Positions 2,885 to 11,302 of a DNA stretch of 64,000 nt are shown piece by piece. Numbering within the stretch: position 1 is the stretch's first letter; each line of letters begins with the position of its first letter. The DNA comes from Pelotomaculum isophthalicicum JI. GTDB lineage: Bacteria; Bacillota; Desulfotomaculia; Desulfotomaculales; Pelotomaculaceae. The notes beneath the pieces are model-generated. The model searched no databases. It was not told where the DNA came from and worked only from the letters and a program-made list of their open reading frames with translations. The DNA lies in NCBI RefSeq assembly GCF_029478095.1, contig NZ_JAKOAV010000002.1:124001-188000 (forward strand). The letters are read 5' to 3'. The position numbers and the translations under genes were made by a program.

Positions 2885-3691
2885 TTATTGTATCAAACGG
2901 TTTTTGACCATTGCCAGGGGCAACCGGATAGTCAATATGACAAAAGCGGCCAGCCAGCCCAAGTCAGCCAGGTTGGACCAGGCCACCTTGCCGTGCAGCA
3001 GGGGGCGGATAACTTCCACAGCATGGTATAACGGCGTAAACCAGGGAAGAAACCTGACCCCCGCCGGCAGGTTGTCCACCGGAAAGAATACTCCGGCGAA
3101 CAAAAACATCGGCGAAATCAATAAGGTGAAAAAATATCCGAAGGAATCATAGTTCGGAGCGATACTGGTCCAAATTAGCGACAATATGGAAAAAGACATG
3201 ACCATCAAAGCAAGCGGCACCGGCGTCAGAAGCGCCCAGGGAGACTTGACCAAACCGAACATCGCCACCACTATCAAAAACACAGTGCCGTAAAGTACTC
3301 CTTTAAATGTCCCGTATAGTATTTCACCCATTACCACGTCATCCATGCTTACCGGAGTGGCCACCATGCCCTGGAAGATTTTTTGATGCCCCATTCTGGT
3401 AAAACTGCCGTAAGTCATCTCATATGTGGTGGAAAACATCGCCGAAGAAGCAATCAGCGCGGGGGCGAGAAAATCGATATATGACAGCCCTTCAATTTGG
3501 TTCACGTACACCCCCAGGCCGAAGCCCATGGCCCATAAGTACAGCATGGGTTCTATGAAATTAAACATGATATTTGCCTTCCAGGTTTTTTTGAAGACCA
3601 GCAGGTTGCGGTAGATAACCTTTAACACCAAGGGCCATGACAGGTCCGGGATAGTGGTTATTCCTTTAAACAATTGTTTTCTTTTTACCAT
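2885..3691 (-). CDS. ABC-2 type permease, NodJ-like
   Basis: A 268-residue integral membrane protein with about six hydrophobic segments and the ABC-2 fold. The C-terminal stretch ISPMFLFAGVFFPVDNLP, with LPWFTPLYHAVEVIRPLL after it, is characteristic of the NodJ/lipooligosaccharide export branch. It would form the channel for the ATPase encoded just upstream (3815-4756), exporting substrate across the cytoplasmic membrane. It is the last gene of the minus-strand cassette that begins at 6970. About 120 bp containing a dispersed repeat separates it from the ATPase gene, so expression of the two may differ somewhat. The substrate may be the product of the cysteine-rich protein and radical SAM enzyme, inferred from context only. 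Confidence 0.85.
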   Translation of the reverse strand: MVKRKQLFKGITTIPDLSWPLVLKVIYRNLLVFKKTWKANIMFNFIEPMLYLWAMGFGLGVYVNQIEGLSYIDFLAPALIASSAMFSTTYEMTYGSFTRMGHQKIFQGMVATPVSMDDVVMGEILYGTFKGVLYGTVFLIVVAMFGLVKSPWALLTPVPLALMVMSFSILSLIWTSIAPNYDSFGYFFTLLISPMFLFAGVFFPVDNLPAGVRFLPWFTPLYHAVEVIRPLLHGKVAWSNLADLGWLAAFVILTIRLPLAMVKNRLIQ

Positions 3692-3721
3692 AACGTCAAC
3701 CTCCCTTATGCCGGTCTTATA

Positions 3722-3812
3722 GAATGATTGTACCTACTCAGTAATTAGAAGCCATGATGAGAGAATGGCTTATTGTCCTCAGATCAGATATTCTGACTAC
3801 TGAATACTGACT
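3722..3812. repeat. Dispersed imperfect palindromic repeat, copy 1
   Basis: This block contains GATGAGAGAATGGCTTATTG and ATTCTGACTACTGAATACTG. A second copy at 9731-9826 shares the order GAGAGAATG, TTATT, ATATTCTGA, TACTGA. The arms (AGTCAG and CTGACT types) can pair. It lies between two genes of one operon. No coding potential. Confidence 0.6.
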
Positions 3813-3814
3813 AC

Positions 3815-4756
3815 TTATTCCTCGTCAAGCGTTTCGCCTGTAAGTTTCAGAAACACATCTTCCAGGTTGGCCGGCCTCAGCCTCTGGTAGCCTACAGGAA
3901 TACCCAGGGCGGCGGCCTTGCCGGACATCCTTTCAGCCAGTTCCCTGCCGTGGTCGGTAAACAATACCAGATCGTCCCCCAGCACCTGGCGGGCCTTGAC
4001 TAAATCCTCGCAACCAGCCACGAGAATCCCGTGCCGCGCGGGCTCCACTCCCAGTTCCAGGGCGTCATTGCCAGTGTGACGCTCAATCAATTCCCGGGGC
4101 GCGCCCTGTTCTAATATTTCCCCCTGGTGAAGCACGATGAGCCTGTCGCAAAGCTGGTCGGCCTCCTCCAGATAGTGGGTGGTCAAGAGCATGGTAGTGC
4201 CCGATTCCTTCAGTTTCTTTAAGCGCTGCCAGACCAGGTGGCGGGCATAGGGGTCCAGGCCTGTGGTGGGCTCGTCCAGGATCAAAAGCGCCGGCTGATT
4301 GAGCAACGCCCTGCCGATAGTTAATCGCCGCTTAAGACCGCCGGACAGGTGCTCCACCACCTCGCCGGACTTGTCCGTCAAATCCATAAAATTCAAAATG
4401 TCCCCGGCCCGCTTTTGGGCCAGGTCTTTAGGCATCCTGAAGTAGCCGGCGCAAACCAGGAGGTTTTCCCAGACGGATAATTCCGGGTCAAGGTTATCCT
4501 CCTGTGGCACTACCCCGACTTTGGCCTTGATATCTCTCGCCCTCTTCATGATATCTTCCCCAAAAACCTCAAGTTTTCCGGCGGTAACAGGGGAAAACCC
4601 GTAGATCATTTTCGCTATGGAGGTTTTCCCCGCTCCGTTCGGCCCGAGCAATCCAAAGCATTCTCCCCCGAAAACAGTGAAGTTGACCCCTTTTACCGCT
4701 TCAAAATCAGCAAATCTTTTGACCAGGTCCCTTGCCGCAATAACGCTTTCTCTCAT
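3815..4756 (-). CDS. ABC transporter ATP-binding protein, NodI-like
   Basis: This 313-residue ATPase has Walker A GPNGAGKTS (about residue 38), signature LSGGLKRR, Walker B LLILDEPTTGLDP and the H-loop TTHYLEEAD. The C-terminal extension of roughly 80 residues and the A-N-L-E-D-V-F-L-K-L-T-G ending are typical of the DrrA/NodI drug and lipooligosaccharide export branch. It pairs with the permease at 2885-3691. Its ATG directly follows the stop codon of the radical SAM gene with no gap, so the two are translationally linked. This suggests the exporter acts on the product of the modifying enzyme. Confidence 0.9.
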   Translation of the reverse strand: MRESVIAARDLVKRFADFEAVKGVNFTVFGGECFGLLGPNGAGKTSIAKMIYGFSPVTAGKLEVFGEDIMKRARDIKAKVGVVPQEDNLDPELSVWENLLVCAGYFRMPKDLAQKRAGDILNFMDLTDKSGEVVEHLSGGLKRRLTIGRALLNQPALLILDEPTTGLDPYARHLVWQRLKKLKESGTTMLLTTHYLEEADQLCDRLIVLHQGEILEQGAPRELIERHTGNDALELGVEPARHGILVAGCEDLVKARQVLGDDLVLFTDHGRELAERMSGKAAALGIPVGYQRLRPANLEDVFLKLTGETLDEE

Positions 4757-6031
4757 TTAACCCCATCGTTCCTTCGTAATAAATCTATTATGAATATTAT
4801 AACCCGACCGCATCAATCCGGATATCCTTTTGGCTTCCTGACAAACTACCCAGAACAGGCAATTCTCTTCAGACGGGGTAAAGTGATCGCCGGTTTGTTC
4901 AAAATTTACCGCGTAGCAGCCTCCGGTGCATTTTCTGGAGCAGCGCTTACAACTCTGTTGTTGACGTATAATTGGATTTTTGAACGGTTCCAGCAAATGG
5001 ACATCGATCTCAGTATTAACATTGCCTACGATACACCTGCCGACCTCACCGGTCAAGCCCAGCAACTTGGAACAGGGACTGACATCTCCGTTTGGCGCCA
5101 CAGCCAGCGACGTGCTGCCGGCCCGGCAGCCCCAACCGGAATACTCATTTTCACCCTTCTCGAACTCCTCAATAAAAATGGGAACACCTTTCTGCTTTAA
5201 AGCATGATAGTCCATCAATATTTTTAACAGGTTGAGGCCGTACCGTGTGATCTCCTCCCTGCTCCAGCTCTTGGCGCCTTGCGCGGGGGCGATAATGAAC
5301 TGATTGATGCCCAGGTCCACAAGTTGCTTAAAATCTTCCCTCATGCTGTCTATGGCGGCGTTGCTTACAGTCATCCTTACCCCCAGCCAGGGCTGGTACA
5401 TTTTCATCAGCGGGATTGAATAGGCGATTTTGTGCCAGGTGCCTTCACCGTTTTTTGTCCGGCGGTAGCGGCCATGAGTTTCCGGACCGCCGTCCATACT
5501 CAACAACATGTTGATATTATATTGCGAAAAGAATTTTAAAATATCTTCACTGACTAAAGTGCCATTGGTGGTTACCGCCCAAGTAATGGCCAGGTTGCGC
5601 TTTTTCGCGGCTTCCAGGGCATAGGGCACAATCTGCTTGATTAAATTAAATTCCAGCAGAGGTTCCCCGCCGATCAAGGTTATATTTACCATCGGAAAGG
5701 ACGCCCGCTCCATCAGCAGATCGATGGCATTCCTGGCCGTGGTAAAATTCATTCTGTCATGAGCGCTTTTTTCGCGAATAAAACAGTATTCACAAGTTAA
5801 ATTGCAGTTAAAGGTCAGGTTCAATTCCAATGCCGCCAATCCGAGTTTGGCCCGGTTTAACTCCTTTACAGCCAGGTTAGTCAATTTTTCCGCGTCCTCG
5901 TTATCCAATAAATATTTCCTTTTCAGAATATCCGTAAGAACCCGGGGGGAGTACCCAGGATTGATTCTGGCATACTCCCTGATAAAAACCGCCGCCTGCT
6001 CAAGCCAGGCGCCGTAGTCACTTATTCCCAT
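4757..6031 (-). CDS. Radical SAM/SPASM peptide-maturase-like protein
   Basis: A 424-residue enzyme. The radical SAM cluster motif is CNLTCEYC (Cys76, Cys80, Cys83) and GGEP is at 121-124. The C-terminal SPASM domain is complete: Cys302, Cys320, Cys333, Cys361, Cys364, Cys368, Cys372, Cys391 and Cys397 can bind two more iron-sulfur clusters. The N-terminal 65 residues form a small helical domain, perhaps for substrate recognition. SPASM radical SAM proteins commonly install thioether or carbon-carbon bonds in ribosomal peptides or activate sulfatases. There is no sulfatase here, but a cysteine-rich repeat protein ends 3 bp upstream and an ABC exporter follows immediately. A peptide-modifying role is therefore the best inference; the reaction cannot be read from the sequence. 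Confidence 0.88.
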   Translation of the reverse strand: MGISDYGAWLEQAAVFIREYARINPGYSPRVLTDILKRKYLLDNEDAEKLTNLAVKELNRAKLGLAALELNLTFNCNLTCEYCFIREKSAHDRMNFTTARNAIDLLMERASFPMVNITLIGGEPLLEFNLIKQIVPYALEAAKKRNLAITWAVTTNGTLVSEDILKFFSQYNINMLLSMDGGPETHGRYRRTKNGEGTWHKIAYSIPLMKMYQPWLGVRMTVSNAAIDSMREDFKQLVDLGINQFIIAPAQGAKSWSREEITRYGLNLLKILMDYHALKQKGVPIFIEEFEKGENEYSGWGCRAGSTSLAVAPNGDVSPCSKLLGLTGEVGRCIVGNVNTEIDVHLLEPFKNPIIRQQQSCKRCSRKCTGGCYAVNFEQTGDHFTPSEENCLFWVVCQEAKRISGLMRSGYNIHNRFITKERWG

Positions 6032-6034
6032 GGT

Positions 6035-6970
6035 TTATTCCTTTTCTTTTTCGTCTTTATTTTTCTGTTCTTCTTTAACTGTAAAATCCATCGGCATTGG
6101 GGATGAAACGGGAGCCATTCCAGCCGGTGTTCCCGCCGCCGGACCAGTTACACCGGTAAACGGGACGGCACAGTTATACCCGCTTGACGTAACGCACTGG
6201 GTAGCGTTAAACGAGAAAAGGCCGCAGAGTTGCTGAAACTGGAAAGTCGTGCACGGTACGCTAAAAGCGGAACCGCAGGGCTGCGTGTATTGGGAAATGC
6301 ACGGTTGCTGATACATGGATACGCAGGGCATCGCGTACTGGGAACCGCACGGTTGCTGAAACATGCATACGCAGGGCATCGCATATTGGGAATCGCACGG
6401 TTGCTGGTACATGCACATGCAAGGCATCGCGTATTGGGAACCGCACGGCTGCTGGTATTGGCACGCGCAAGCTTGCCCGTACAGGAAGGATCCGCAATAA
6501 ACAGCCGGACATCCGCCTACGTCGGCCAGCGGCCCCACTACTCCGTAGAACTGTTGGCTGCCGGGGCAACTATATCCCCCCGGCATGTTGCATTGCGAAC
6601 CAAATGGGGTTGGCCCGCAAGTACCAGGCGCATAGTTGCCGGGGCAGGTATAGACGCCCGAGCAAAAGACAGGCGGCCTGCAAACATACTGCTGGCTGCA
6701 GCCATACTGCGGGCCGGTGCAACCAATCTCCTCTTTTACGCTATCCCTCAGTTTTTCCGCCAGGCGCTCCATGCTTTTCTCGGTCAGGGTCTGTTTTGAC
6801 GGTTCCCAGACAATTTGAATTGACTTGATCGGAATTGAACCGACGCCTTCCATAGTTTCTATCCGCACATACTGCTCATTCACCGCCAATACTGTACCGG
6901 AGATCATTCTTCCGTTAACCAGTTCAACGGCAATATTTTTACCTTGACTGGCCTGCAATTGCTCAAACAA
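6035..6970 (-). CDS. Cys-rich repeat protein with Sm-like N-domain; candidate substrate of the radical SAM enzyme
   Basis: A 311-residue protein in two parts. Residues 8-55 look like a small beta-barrel of Sm/LSm type (VELVNGRMISGTVLAVNEQY, then VRIETMEGVGSIPIKSIQIV). A charged helix follows to residue 83. The remaining sequence has 26 cysteines, none before residue 84, and includes four 16-residue repeats (consensus QQPCxSQYAMPCxCMY) at 173-236. The tail is acidic and lysine-rich (KEEQKNKDEKEKE). The start is TTG 6970, 9 nt after AAGGAG. The layout resembles a long leader followed by a modifiable core and it heads the operon with the radical SAM and export genes. Alternatively it is a spore coat protein: low-complexity Y/Q/P/C repeats and the sigma-K-like promoter at 7007-7034 would fit. 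Confidence 0.7.
   Translation of the reverse strand: MFEQLQASQGKNIAVELVNGRMISGTVLAVNEQYVRIETMEGVGSIPIKSIQIVWEPSKQTLTEKSMERLAEKLRDSVKEEIGCTGPQYGCSQQYVCRPPVFCSGVYTCPGNYAPGTCGPTPFGSQCNMPGGYSCPGSQQFYGVVGPLADVGGCPAVYCGSFLYGQACACQYQQPCGSQYAMPCMCMYQQPCDSQYAMPCVCMFQQPCGSQYAMPCVSMYQQPCISQYTQPCGSAFSVPCTTFQFQQLCGLFSFNATQCVTSSGYNCAVPFTGVTGPAAGTPAGMAPVSSPMPMDFTVKEEQKNKDEKEKE
6263..6454 (-). repeat. Four 48-bp in-frame tandem repeats
   Basis: Four consecutive 48-bp units encode residues 173-236 of the cysteine-rich protein. Units one to three are close copies (QQPCGSQYAMPCMCMY, QQPCDSQYAMPCVCMF, QQPCGSQYAMPCVSMY). The fourth is diverged (QQPCISQYTQPCGSAF). Copy-number change would keep the reading frame. 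Confidence 0.9.
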
Positions 6971-7006
6971 CTCAAGTCACTCCTTGGGCTGATATTTTGT
7001 CTTATT

Positions 7007-7034
7007 CAATATATGATTGAAGGAGTTTTTCGGT
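7007..7034 (-). promoter_or_regulatory. Possible sigma-K-like promoter of the Cys-rich/radical SAM operon
   Basis: On the minus strand, AC (7034-7033) is separated by 17 bp from CATATATTG (7015-7007), the mother-cell sporulation pattern AC-N17-CATAnnnT. Transcription would start near 7000, about 20 nt before the ribosome binding site. The motif is short, so chance occurrence is possible. The same pattern recurs at 34488-34515. Confidence 0.35.
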
Positions 7035-7152
7035 TCAGGCCGGCTTGAAGGGATTACCGGTTTTGTGTGGAAGTATTTCTACGGAGTGCTTTTGCAGATT
7101 GATTTTCGCGGATAACACATTTTTTCAGCGGTAAGCGCCGGGGGATTATGAA

Positions 7153-7941
7153 TTGAGATTCTGCAGCCTTTCATCCTGCAGCTACGCCAACAGCGTTTTG
7201 GTGCAGGACAGCAATACATGTATACTCATCGACTGTGGTCTCAGGAAAAGAGATATCCGGCCATTCCTGCAAGAGGCCGGCTTGTCGCCGGGTGATCTCG
7301 ACGCGGTTCTGGTAACCCACTGTCATACCGATCATATTTACGGACTAAAATTTCTTTGCCAGGAAAAAAATCTTCCTGTCTACTCAACTCCGGGCATATT
7401 AAATGAACTGCATAAACTCTGCCATTTTAAAACAATTCCGGAATTAACCGCCTTCGGCGGCAACGCCGTGGAAAAAATCGGCAGTCTTTCGGTAACTCAT
7501 TTCAGACTGTCCCAAGATGTTGAAACAATCGGCTTTGTTATCGGTGGCGGTGACGGCGAGCGGATGGGGTTTATCACTGATACCGGTTATGTCCCGGAAA
7601 GCTGCCTTGAAGCTTTTCAATCACTTGATTACTTGTATATTGAGTCAAACCACGATGTAAACATGTATAAAAAATCAACAAAGCCATGGCATGTAATCAG
7701 GCGCAACCTGGGTCCCACCGGGCACCTCTCAAATGCGCAGTGCGGACTGGCGCTGCAAGCCATGGATCTAAAAAACTGCAAGCTGGTTGTACTGGGCCAC
7801 CTCAGCGAGAACGACAATGAGCCCTCCATAGCCGTAAACAACGCCCGGCGCCACTTGGCGGCAAACATACCTCTATTCAGCGCGCCCGCCCGGGTTCCGG
7901 GCACTTGGTCGGATCGGCCTCCCGCATTGCCGCATTTGTAA
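7153..7941 (+). CDS. Metallo-beta-lactamase-fold hydrolase, YycJ/WalJ-like
   Basis: This 262-residue protein carries the zinc motif THCHTDH (HxHxDH class), the Asp-containing FITDTGYVP strand and the late GHLS histidine. The opening FCSLSSCSYANSVLVQ resembles the SSSxGNxxxV start of YycJ-type proteins, which are 5'-exonuclease or hydrolase candidates linked to cell-wall and DNA homeostasis in Bacillota. The start is TTG 7153. An ATG at 7148 is out of frame and stops after two codons. It is a single gene, divergent from the operon starting at 6970. The C-terminal 20 residues (PARVPGTWSDRPPALPHL) look non-conserved. Confidence 0.85.
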   Translation: MRFCSLSSCSYANSVLVQDSNTCILIDCGLRKRDIRPFLQEAGLSPGDLDAVLVTHCHTDHIYGLKFLCQEKNLPVYSTPGILNELHKLCHFKTIPELTAFGGNAVEKIGSLSVTHFRLSQDVETIGFVIGGGDGERMGFITDTGYVPESCLEAFQSLDYLYIESNHDVNMYKKSTKPWHVIRRNLGPTGHLSNAQCGLALQAMDLKNCKLVVLGHLSENDNEPSIAVNNARRHLAANIPLFSAPARVPGTWSDRPPALPHL

Positions 7942-9896: not shown

Positions 9897-10108
9897 ATGG
9901 TAGGATGGTAGGTGGTTATGCTGGGTGCATTTCCAGACATTTGTATGGCACAGTTGATCAAGGCATTCCTACCGGAATGCCTTTTTTGACTGGTTGTCCT
10001 AGCGCCATATCTGCCACAAATCAAAATATCCGGGGAGGGATGGTAGTTTAAAGCAAGTACGGTAAGCACGGTAGATAAAAACTATGATTTGTGGAGGGTT
10101 TCTTACTG
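9897..10108 (+). promoter_or_regulatory. Leader RNA with terminator: candidate attenuator or riboswitch
   Basis: The leader between the promoter and the first start codon contains a terminator at 9960-9987, 60 nt after the predicted start site. GGTAGG occurs twice early on (9899-9904 and 9907-9912) and can pair with CCTACC (9967-9972) in the terminator, an alternative fold that would prevent termination. Further down, CCACAAATCA (10014-10023) is perfectly complementary to TGATTTGTGG (10085-10094), whose last bases overlap the GGAGGG ribosome binding site. This suggests a second control at translation. The leader matches no riboswitch class I recognise. A weak 46-codon frame from ATG 9905 could alternatively be a leader peptide. 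Confidence 0.55.
9960..9987 (+). terminator. Intrinsic terminator inside the leader
   Basis: AAGGCATTCC and GGAATGCCTT form a 10-bp stem with a short loop, followed by TTTTT. Its position between promoter and coding region implies premature termination. Confidence 0.8.
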
Positions 10109-11302
10109 ATGGAAAAACAAACAATTAAAATAGGGGTCATCGGCGGGCCGTTTGACCGGGTTACCGCTGTGCTCGAAGAATTTGAACCGGGCCAGAAGGA
10201 TTTTATCATACACCCGGAACAATGCGGCTTCGCCTCAAGATCCGTTCCTGAGCCCACCGGGAGAGAAGTTGAAATAACCTTACCCGCCCGTCTGCACCCG
10301 ACAGTGCTGGACATGAACAGGTTTAGCCCCGTCCGGCCGGGCGGCGGGGGGATGGGCATCGCTATCGGCATTTACCTGAAAGCCAAGGTGCGCTCGACCA
10401 CAAACCCGGAAATCGTGGTGAGCGGAGAGCGGCCCCTGGTTGCCACTCATTTTGCCAAGGTTATCAAGGAGATCCTTGGCTACCGGGGCGGGTTTGAAAT
10501 CGAGTTGTACGACCACAAGCGCCGGCATGTCGGTTTGGGGTCGACCACCGGTTCGATGACCGCGGCCTGCATCGGCATGAACGAAGTCCTCGGCCGGCCC
10601 TTCACCAACAGGGAACTGCGCCGGATTGTCGGCTACAACGCCTGTGAGGAAAGCCCGCGTGCCAACGGCTGCCTGATCCGCGGCTTTGAAACCGGCATCG
10701 GGGCGATGGCCAGTGTCAACGGGGGAATAATAATAGCAACCGATAATTTAGAAATGATTTACCGGGCGGCCATGCCGGACACGAAAGTCGTCATCGTCAT
10801 TCCCGACGTCCCCAGTCTGGAAGATGAGTTCACCGGTAAAGAAACAGCCGCCGAGTCGGAAGTGGAAGTTCTAATGAGGCGCGGCCGGTACCTTGATTAC
10901 TTACAAAGCGGCGTCAAGGCGCAGATAATCCTGCTGGACATGATGCCGGCCATGGTGCAGGGCAACCTGAAGGGAATCGGCGACGCCCTGTTTGACATCT
11001 GCTTCCTCGGTTCCAAACGGGCCGAGTGCGAGCAGCACGGCATCGCGGGCACGCAGATTTACAACTATATCGCCAGTTTCCGGGAAGCGGGCGCCGAATT
11101 GGCCGGTATGAGTTCGGTCGGGCCGACGATATTCGCTTTGACTCAAAAACCGGAAGTACCGGACAGGCTGCTGGAATTACTTGAGTCACGGGGTAATGCG
11201 AAGAGCCGGATCATGGTTACCGAAGTGGACAACATCGGCGCGCGCGTTACGGAAAACGGCGTGGAAAGGAACTATATCAATGAAAGCTGGTTGTCGGGTT
11301 AA
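10109..11302 (+). CDS. GHMP-fold protein similar to beta-ribofuranosylaminobenzene 5'-phosphate synthase
   Basis: A 397-residue protein. PARLHPTVLDMNRFSP followed by PGGGGMGIAIGIYL matches the start of archaeal beta-RFAP synthase (MptG: R-x-H-x-x-x-x-D-x-N, then GGxGxxI). GLGSTTGSMTAACIG is the GHMP phosphate-binding loop. MptG joins PRPP with an aromatic acid, releasing CO2, in methanopterin synthesis. No methanogen genes are present here, so the substrate probably differs. The start is ATG 10109 after GGAGGG. The gene overlaps the TrpF-like gene by 23 bp and opens the operon behind the controlled leader. Family assignment is good; activity is inferred. Confidence 0.75.
   Translation: MEKQTIKIGVIGGPFDRVTAVLEEFEPGQKDFIIHPEQCGFASRSVPEPTGREVEITLPARLHPTVLDMNRFSPVRPGGGGMGIAIGIYLKAKVRSTTNPEIVVSGERPLVATHFAKVIKEILGYRGGFEIELYDHKRRHVGLGSTTGSMTAACIGMNEVLGRPFTNRELRRIVGYNACEESPRANGCLIRGFETGIGAMASVNGGIIIATDNLEMIYRAAMPDTKVVIVIPDVPSLEDEFTGKETAAESEVEVLMRRGRYLDYLQSGVKAQIILLDMMPAMVQGNLKGIGDALFDICFLGSKRAECEQHGIAGTQIYNYIASFREAGAELAGMSSVGPTIFALTQKPEVPDRLLELLESRGNAKSRIMVTEVDNIGARVTENGVERNYINESWLSG

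Follow-up and report, generated by a model that had tools for sequence, protein, structure and literature searches.

What is a long, Cys-rich protein doing beside a radical S-adenosylmethionine (SAM) enzyme, and do the two serve a secreted peptide or the surface of the spore? The question is raised by a locus of Pelotomaculum isophthalicicum JI, lying in a 64,000-nucleotide stretch of contig NZ_JAKOAV010000002.1 (positions 124,001 to 188,000; hereafter the window), in which the gene for a Cys-rich protein is followed by those for a radical SAM/SPASM enzyme and for the ATPase and permease of an ATP-binding cassette (ABC) transporter. An earlier reading, made from the sequence alone, had described four co-directional genes with 0–3 bp between the first three, interpreted them as precursor, modifying enzyme and exporter, and seen in a promoter-like sequence a hint of production during sporulation. 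All four open reading frames (ORFs) are indeed found on the minus strand, with gaps of 3, 0 and 123 bp in the order Cys-rich protein, radical SAM enzyme, ATPase, permease. We argue here, with reasonable confidence, that the first two genes form a sporulation module of their own, and that the Cys-rich product is a mother-cell protein of the spore coat or exosporium with a tail cross-linked by the enzyme.

The radical SAM enzyme and the Cys-rich protein almost certainly belong together. With the Cys-rich protein as query, homologues were found in 17 of 100 relatives, each time with the same radical SAM enzyme encoded directly downstream. Separate profiles of the Cys-rich family and of the enzyme picked out, with no exception, the same 19 of 113 genomes of the order or class, a count of genomes and not of independent events. 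Both genes were also found, again adjacent, in three further genomes of the phylum (G161, G218 and G478), and they stand side by side in 22 of 22 genomes and in several unrelated settings. In a 199-genome sample of the phylum, matches to the enzyme profile were confined to genomes that also carry the Cys-rich family. The concern that homologues might mostly lack a radical SAM neighbour is laid to rest by the finding that no genome, among the 113 of the order or class and the phylum sample, carries the Cys-rich family without the enzyme. Presence is patchy within genera (two of six genomes in genus g7, a mixture of presence and absence in g21), so gain and loss of the two genes seem to be coupled. 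An exact 8-mer scan of all species returned near relatives only, the locus being identical in Pelotomaculum sp. PtaB.Bin013.

The surroundings of the pair differ between groups. In the window's genus, its neighbours are a superoxide dismutase and a metallo-hydrolase gene; the sporulation gene yqfD adjoins it in G003, G011, G014 and G018; and a SigK-like sigma gene lies ~2 kb away in five of five Desulforamulus-type genomes. This last gene was rejected as sigK itself: at least one such genome (G055) has an intact, higher-scoring sigK elsewhere, so the gene near the pair is a second SigK-like gene, which may encode a second, dedicated sigma factor. In Desulforamulus aquiferis (L067 8319-10250 / L119), apparent frameshifts affect both the Cys-rich and the radical SAM genes, reflecting either decay or sequencing error.

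Upstream sequences indicate that the pair is very likely under sigma-K-type control. The pattern AC-N16/17-CATANNNT occurs ~15–45 nt before the start of 26 of 31 non-redundant family genes, against 0.41 expected and a maximum of 4 in 1000 shuffles of the family upstreams; it precedes 2 of 238 non-family genes of the same loci, one of them a SigK-like gene. In the strict form, 25 of the 31 upstreams conform to the sigma-K consensus MWCM-16-CATANNNTD published for Bacillus, with its gap relaxed to 15–16 (PMC9562818). A consensus promoter is thus conserved upstream, as membership of the sigma-K regulon calls for, and since none of the 31 upstreams fits the sigma-E consensus, sigma-E control was ruled out. 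The same sigma-K-type promoter also precedes unlinked paralogues in G001, G009, G015 and G019. The promoter-like AC-N17-CATAnnnT reported earlier is present in the window, where it matches MACM-N16-CATANNNTD exactly, but such a match in a single genome means little: the pattern has 5 matches in the window for 1.5 expected, and 126 in the genome for 70 of the reversed pattern. The window match was therefore set aside as too weak by itself and the cross-species comparison used instead; because the promoter is conserved across species, it is more than chance, and it bears out the earlier hint of production during sporulation. Genes of the sigK family were found in 60 of 60 relatives searched and spoIVA in 93 of 100, the latter being so widespread that it does not discriminate. 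Given the conserved promoter and the presence of sigK and spoIVA in the relatives, late expression of the genes in the mother cell is very probable.

Note that sigK is in two pieces, with its N-terminal and C-terminal halves separated by ~4 kb in G011 (L182, G011:C1:1159800-1165600) and G001 (L183, G001:C43); in G011 the intervening ORFs appear to encode a serine recombinase of resolvase type and a protein resembling DNA methyltransferases. In the window's genome the two halves lie on two contigs (L184 1718-2095 and L185 2397-2888). The split looks like interruption by a skin-type element.

The Cys-rich protein consists of a head, a helix and a tail. AlphaFold models residues 1–55 as a helix and five strands, with a predicted local distance difference test score (pLDDT) near 90, and the model aligns to Hfq (VIA-align Z 9–11 over 54–59 residues), in keeping with the Sm-like head proposed earlier. 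The predicted N-terminal helix and five-strand barrel are those of the Sm/Hfq fold, and it is this fold that suggests assembly into an Hfq-like ring. Matches to LSM profiles are weak and under cut-off, so the assignment is one of fold only and not of family. The helix that follows, SLTEENMExLAxxLR, persists with changes in the most distant family members, in which head and helix are conserved and the tail repeats unrelated. A further Sm-head protein (L056 8354-8692), with weak matches to Hfq and DUF6897, has only one Cys and lacks the Cys tail, and the head thus also exists on its own.

The tail is quite likely the part that is modified. Its 26 Cys begin at residue 84, exactly as the sequence-only reading had counted; of the four 16-residue repeats that it had reported, three are full units and the fourth is partial, as follows from 3.8 copies of a 48-bp repeat. 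Setting distant members side by side is the most informative part of the analysis. The repeat unit of the window protein is QQPCGSQYAMPC, that of most Pelotomaculum is CGPFQFGQP and that of Desulforamulus CGFRFQQP, with CFERFGQP and CTQMYAQP in G218, CRERFGPPPP and CPQYQYGPPYG in G161, and CxxxYxQP among the types of distant relatives. Across these sequences, an aromatic residue (Phe, Tyr or Trp) stands at +3 to +5 of 481 of 565 tail Cys (85%); at +4 alone it follows 46% of Cys overall, where shuffles reach 20% at most, and in the G218/G478 group 93%. A cornifin (SPRR) profile match on the tail (E 0.0008, below cut-off) was taken as compositional similarity. In one paralogue in G015 (L118 2004-2615), the usual tail repeats are replaced by sequence rich in Cys, His, Tyr and Asn, and no sigma-K-type promoter was seen upstream of it. 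Unlinked Cys-rich Sm-head paralogues are present in G001, G009, G015, G019, G218 and G478, and the window's genome itself encodes a second Cys-rich Sm-head protein with CGPFQF repeats and no adjoining radical SAM gene (L054 15716-16432, G000:C30).

The enzyme carries CxxxCxxC, GGEP and seven Cys in the SPASM region, with ten Cys invariant in 16 homologues, the seven included, so the complete CxxxCxxC site and full SPASM set described earlier stand. By Pfam it belongs to the superfamily of radical SAM/SPASM peptide maturases, its scores for Radical_SAM (54 bits) and for SPASM (24 bits) exceeding the respective cut-offs. Against the NCBIfam equivalogs, by contrast, it stays under every cut-off; PapB (NF047865) is nearest with 211 bits for a cut-off of 340, followed by QhpD (TIGR03906; 161, cut-off 453) and the SCIFF maturase (TIGR03974; 156, cut-off 425), and the best match among solved structures is CteB (PDB 5wgg, 112.7 bits). 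Clustering with anaerobic sulfatase maturases, which had been named as a check, is contradicted by a score of 101 bits to TIGR03942 (cut-off 349) vs 211 bits to PapB; with no sulfatase in the neighbourhood, that function was ruled out. All three nearest families make Cys thioethers. PapB links Cys to Asp in CX3D and tolerates 0–6 spacer residues (PMC9413430), QhpD acts on a protein subunit recognised via a leader (PMC7876137), and in subtilosin A Phe is the acceptor of a Cys thioether (PMC8172795). We hold with moderate confidence that the bond made here is a Cys thioether; an aromatic residue as its partner is possible, and we propose it tentatively.

In the resulting model, sigma-K RNA polymerase would transcribe the Cys-rich and radical SAM genes together in the mother cell, late in sporulation. 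The enzyme would recognise its substrate via the Sm-like head, the SLTEENM helix or both, thread the disordered tail and oxidatively couple Cys thiols to nearby residues, most likely the Phe or Tyr 3–5 residues downstream. The product would carry many small thioether rings per chain, with 2 Da lost for each, and this stiffened, redox-stable protein, possibly multimerised via its Hfq-like head, would be deposited in the coat or exosporium. The same enzyme would modify the unlinked paralogues of several genomes as well. A place in the outer layers of the spore is probable. The picture in full, of anaerobe spores armoured by tails of many radical-made Cys-to-aromatic thioether rings set on an Hfq-like ring, with structural ranthipeptide-type chemistry under sigma-K, is offered more tentatively still.

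The locus could also be read as a ribosomally synthesized and post-translationally modified peptide (RiPP) system of ranthipeptide-like or sactipeptide-like type, the Sm head acting as leader, the Cys tail as core and a NodIJ-type transporter exporting the product as toxin or signal. The gene order in the window, substrate, enzyme, ATPase and permease with gaps of 0–3 bp, fits such a system, as do the peptide maturases nearest to the enzyme, and the two downstream genes resemble NodIJ/DrrAB ABC-2 exporters (301 bits vs NodI and 175 bits vs NodJ, both below cut-off). However, these genes are not conserved with the pair: they follow it in the window's species, P. terephthalicicum and PtaB.Bin104 only, that is in three of the 18 species with a contig long enough (those of G008, G013 and G017 are too short to judge). 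Because it stands beside the pair in only three close species, the transporter is accessory and not the part of the system that the sequence-only reading took it for, and a secreted peptide with dedicated exporter was ruled out as the general case. No protease gene was found at the pair either, so that the conserved dedicated exporter or protease typical of a secreted RiPP system is missing; the promoter is of late mother-cell type, the head is too big and too well folded for a usual leader, and many paralogous substrates come without a transporter. We thus regard secretion as quite unlikely. Of the earlier trio, substrate and radical SAM enzyme are strongly supported, and with the exporter not conserved, the secreted leader/core picture gives way to a mother-cell structural protein, which needs no exporter to reach the spore surface.

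A coat protein held by ordinary disulfides, with the enzyme making a sparse or different change (a single sactionine, epimerisation, a C–C cyclophane on aromatics or maturation of the head), deserves more weight and is still unlikely. The exosporium protein CdeC, the crust proteins CotY and CotZ, and ExsY are Cys-rich and described as disulfide-linked (PMC6101409); the enzyme is weakly similar to cyclophane-forming families too, and Phe-X-Phe occurs in many tail repeats. Yet the Cys-rich tail is found only in genomes with the enzyme, so the tail seems to need it, and the closest enzyme families are formers of Cys thioethers. A role of the tail in binding and storing metal or clusters for sporulation, the enzyme being its maturation factor, would account for the high Cys content and for the Cys/His/Tyr/Asn-rich tail of L118, but is very improbable: most tails have almost no His, and their Cys lie 6–10 residues apart with one aromatic each, unlike the CxC or CxxC of metal sites.

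Several observations weigh against the cross-linked spore protein that we favour. The Cys-to-aromatic distance varies from +3 to +5 and, the tails being repetitive as well, the periodicity may have a structural cause; one conserved module has CRPPD, with Asp at +4. The central SPASM spacing is CX2CX3CX3C vs CX2CX5CX3C in the nearest solved homologue, and the structure model of the enzyme is poor (pLDDT 49), its active site and recognition domain not being judgeable from it. The substrates known for radical SAM maturases of this type are mostly short peptides, the exporter is co-transcribed with the pair in the window's species, and the whole-genome profile searches covered one phylum, the window's own.

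Table 1. Features of the locus and of related loci; positions are those of the window unless a locus is named.
Feature	Position	Strand	Remarks
NodJ-type ABC permease	2885-3691	minus	accessory neighbour (3 species only)
NodI/DrrA-type ABC ATPase	3815-4756	minus	accessory neighbour (3 species only)
Radical SAM/SPASM enzyme	4757-6031	minus	424 aa; unnamed subfamily
SPASM region	4859-5128	minus	C302...C320...CX2CX3CX3C...C391; family signature GGCYAVNFEQTG
SAM-cluster motif CNLTCEYC (CxxxCxxC)	5783-5806	minus	residues 76-83; invariant in 16 homologues
Cys-rich Sm-head protein	6035-6970	minus	311 aa; TTG start; putative substrate and protein of the spore surface
Cys/aromatic tail	6038-6721	minus	26 Cys; putative site of modification; disorder predicted for the unmodified form
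48-bp tandem repeat	6274-6454	minus	3.8 copies; encodes QQPCGSQYAMPCMCMY-type units
Conserved helix region	6725-6799	minus	consensus SLTEENMExLAxxLR; candidate enzyme recognition element
Sm/Hfq-fold head	6800-6970	minus	residues 1-57; AlphaFold, Hfq alignment; weak LSM profile matches
Shine-Dalgarno AAGGAGTG	6978-6985	minus	ahead of the Cys-rich gene; read from sequence
Sigma-K-type promoter AACC-N16-CATATATTG	7007-7035	minus	end 36 nt ahead of start codon
SigK-like sigma gene near pair	L047 13900-14598; L050 5375-6127; L051 13335-14030; L052 5210-5905; L067 12083-12781

Elsewhere in the window, a divergent gene of metallo-beta-lactamase fold (7153-7941) adjoins the pair, a position kept in the genera of G000/G001 and G009/G015/G019. 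Two small overlapping genes at 969-1407 appear from their ORFs to be HicB/HicA toxin-antitoxin-like. The product of 10091-11302 has a GHMP-kinase fold and a weak resemblance to the methanopterin-synthesis enzyme beta-RFAP synthase (89 bits, cut-off 328).

In model species, the outer layers of the spore are described as held by disulfides and similar oxidative links; to our knowledge, the building of a comparably tough coat in strict anaerobes has been little studied. Our search for radical SAM enzymes in connection with the spore coat returned nothing relevant, no such spore system being described in the literature searched. If the model is true, it would add a new means of making bacterial spore coats tough, through cross-links not reducible as disulfides are. 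Dedicating a radical SAM enzyme to a structural protein of late sporulation would join RiPP chemistry to spore assembly and extend it from short secreted peptides to proteins of 200–340 residues, and repeats such as CFERFGQP and CGPFQFGQP would be scaffolds for enzymatic stapling.

Among known systems, CotY/CotZ/ExsY and CdeC/CdeM are likewise Cys-rich structural proteins, made late in sporulation for the outer layers of the spore; they differ in being described as disulfide-linked, with no radical SAM partner reported in the literature examined, and we know of no Sm-like head in them. The CXXX-repeat (TIGR04115) and Cys-every-fifth (NF038107) systems also pair a radical SAM enzyme with a substrate of regularly spaced Cys, but our enzyme scores 116 and 92 bits for cut-offs of 350 and 600, and the spacing here is 6–10 with one aromatic per Cys. 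SCIFF/CteB offers the closest solved structure by sequence and Clostridial thioether chemistry, although SCIFF is a short six-Cys peptide. In QhpC/QhpD, as proposed here, a radical SAM enzyme introduces several Cys thioethers, and its target is a protein subunit and not a secreted peptide; there the thioethers run from Cys to Asp or Glu in a quinohemoprotein subunit, without a link to sporulation. The ranthipeptide system PapA/PapB gives the best family score and shares a radical SAM/SPASM enzyme beside a Cys-rich substrate with repeated Cys-spacer-acceptor motifs, which yield thioethers in the case of PapB; the peptide PapA is short and its acceptors are of CX3D type, whereas the present family has 200–340 residues, mostly aromatic candidate partners, a head of Sm-like fold and a sporulation-type promoter.

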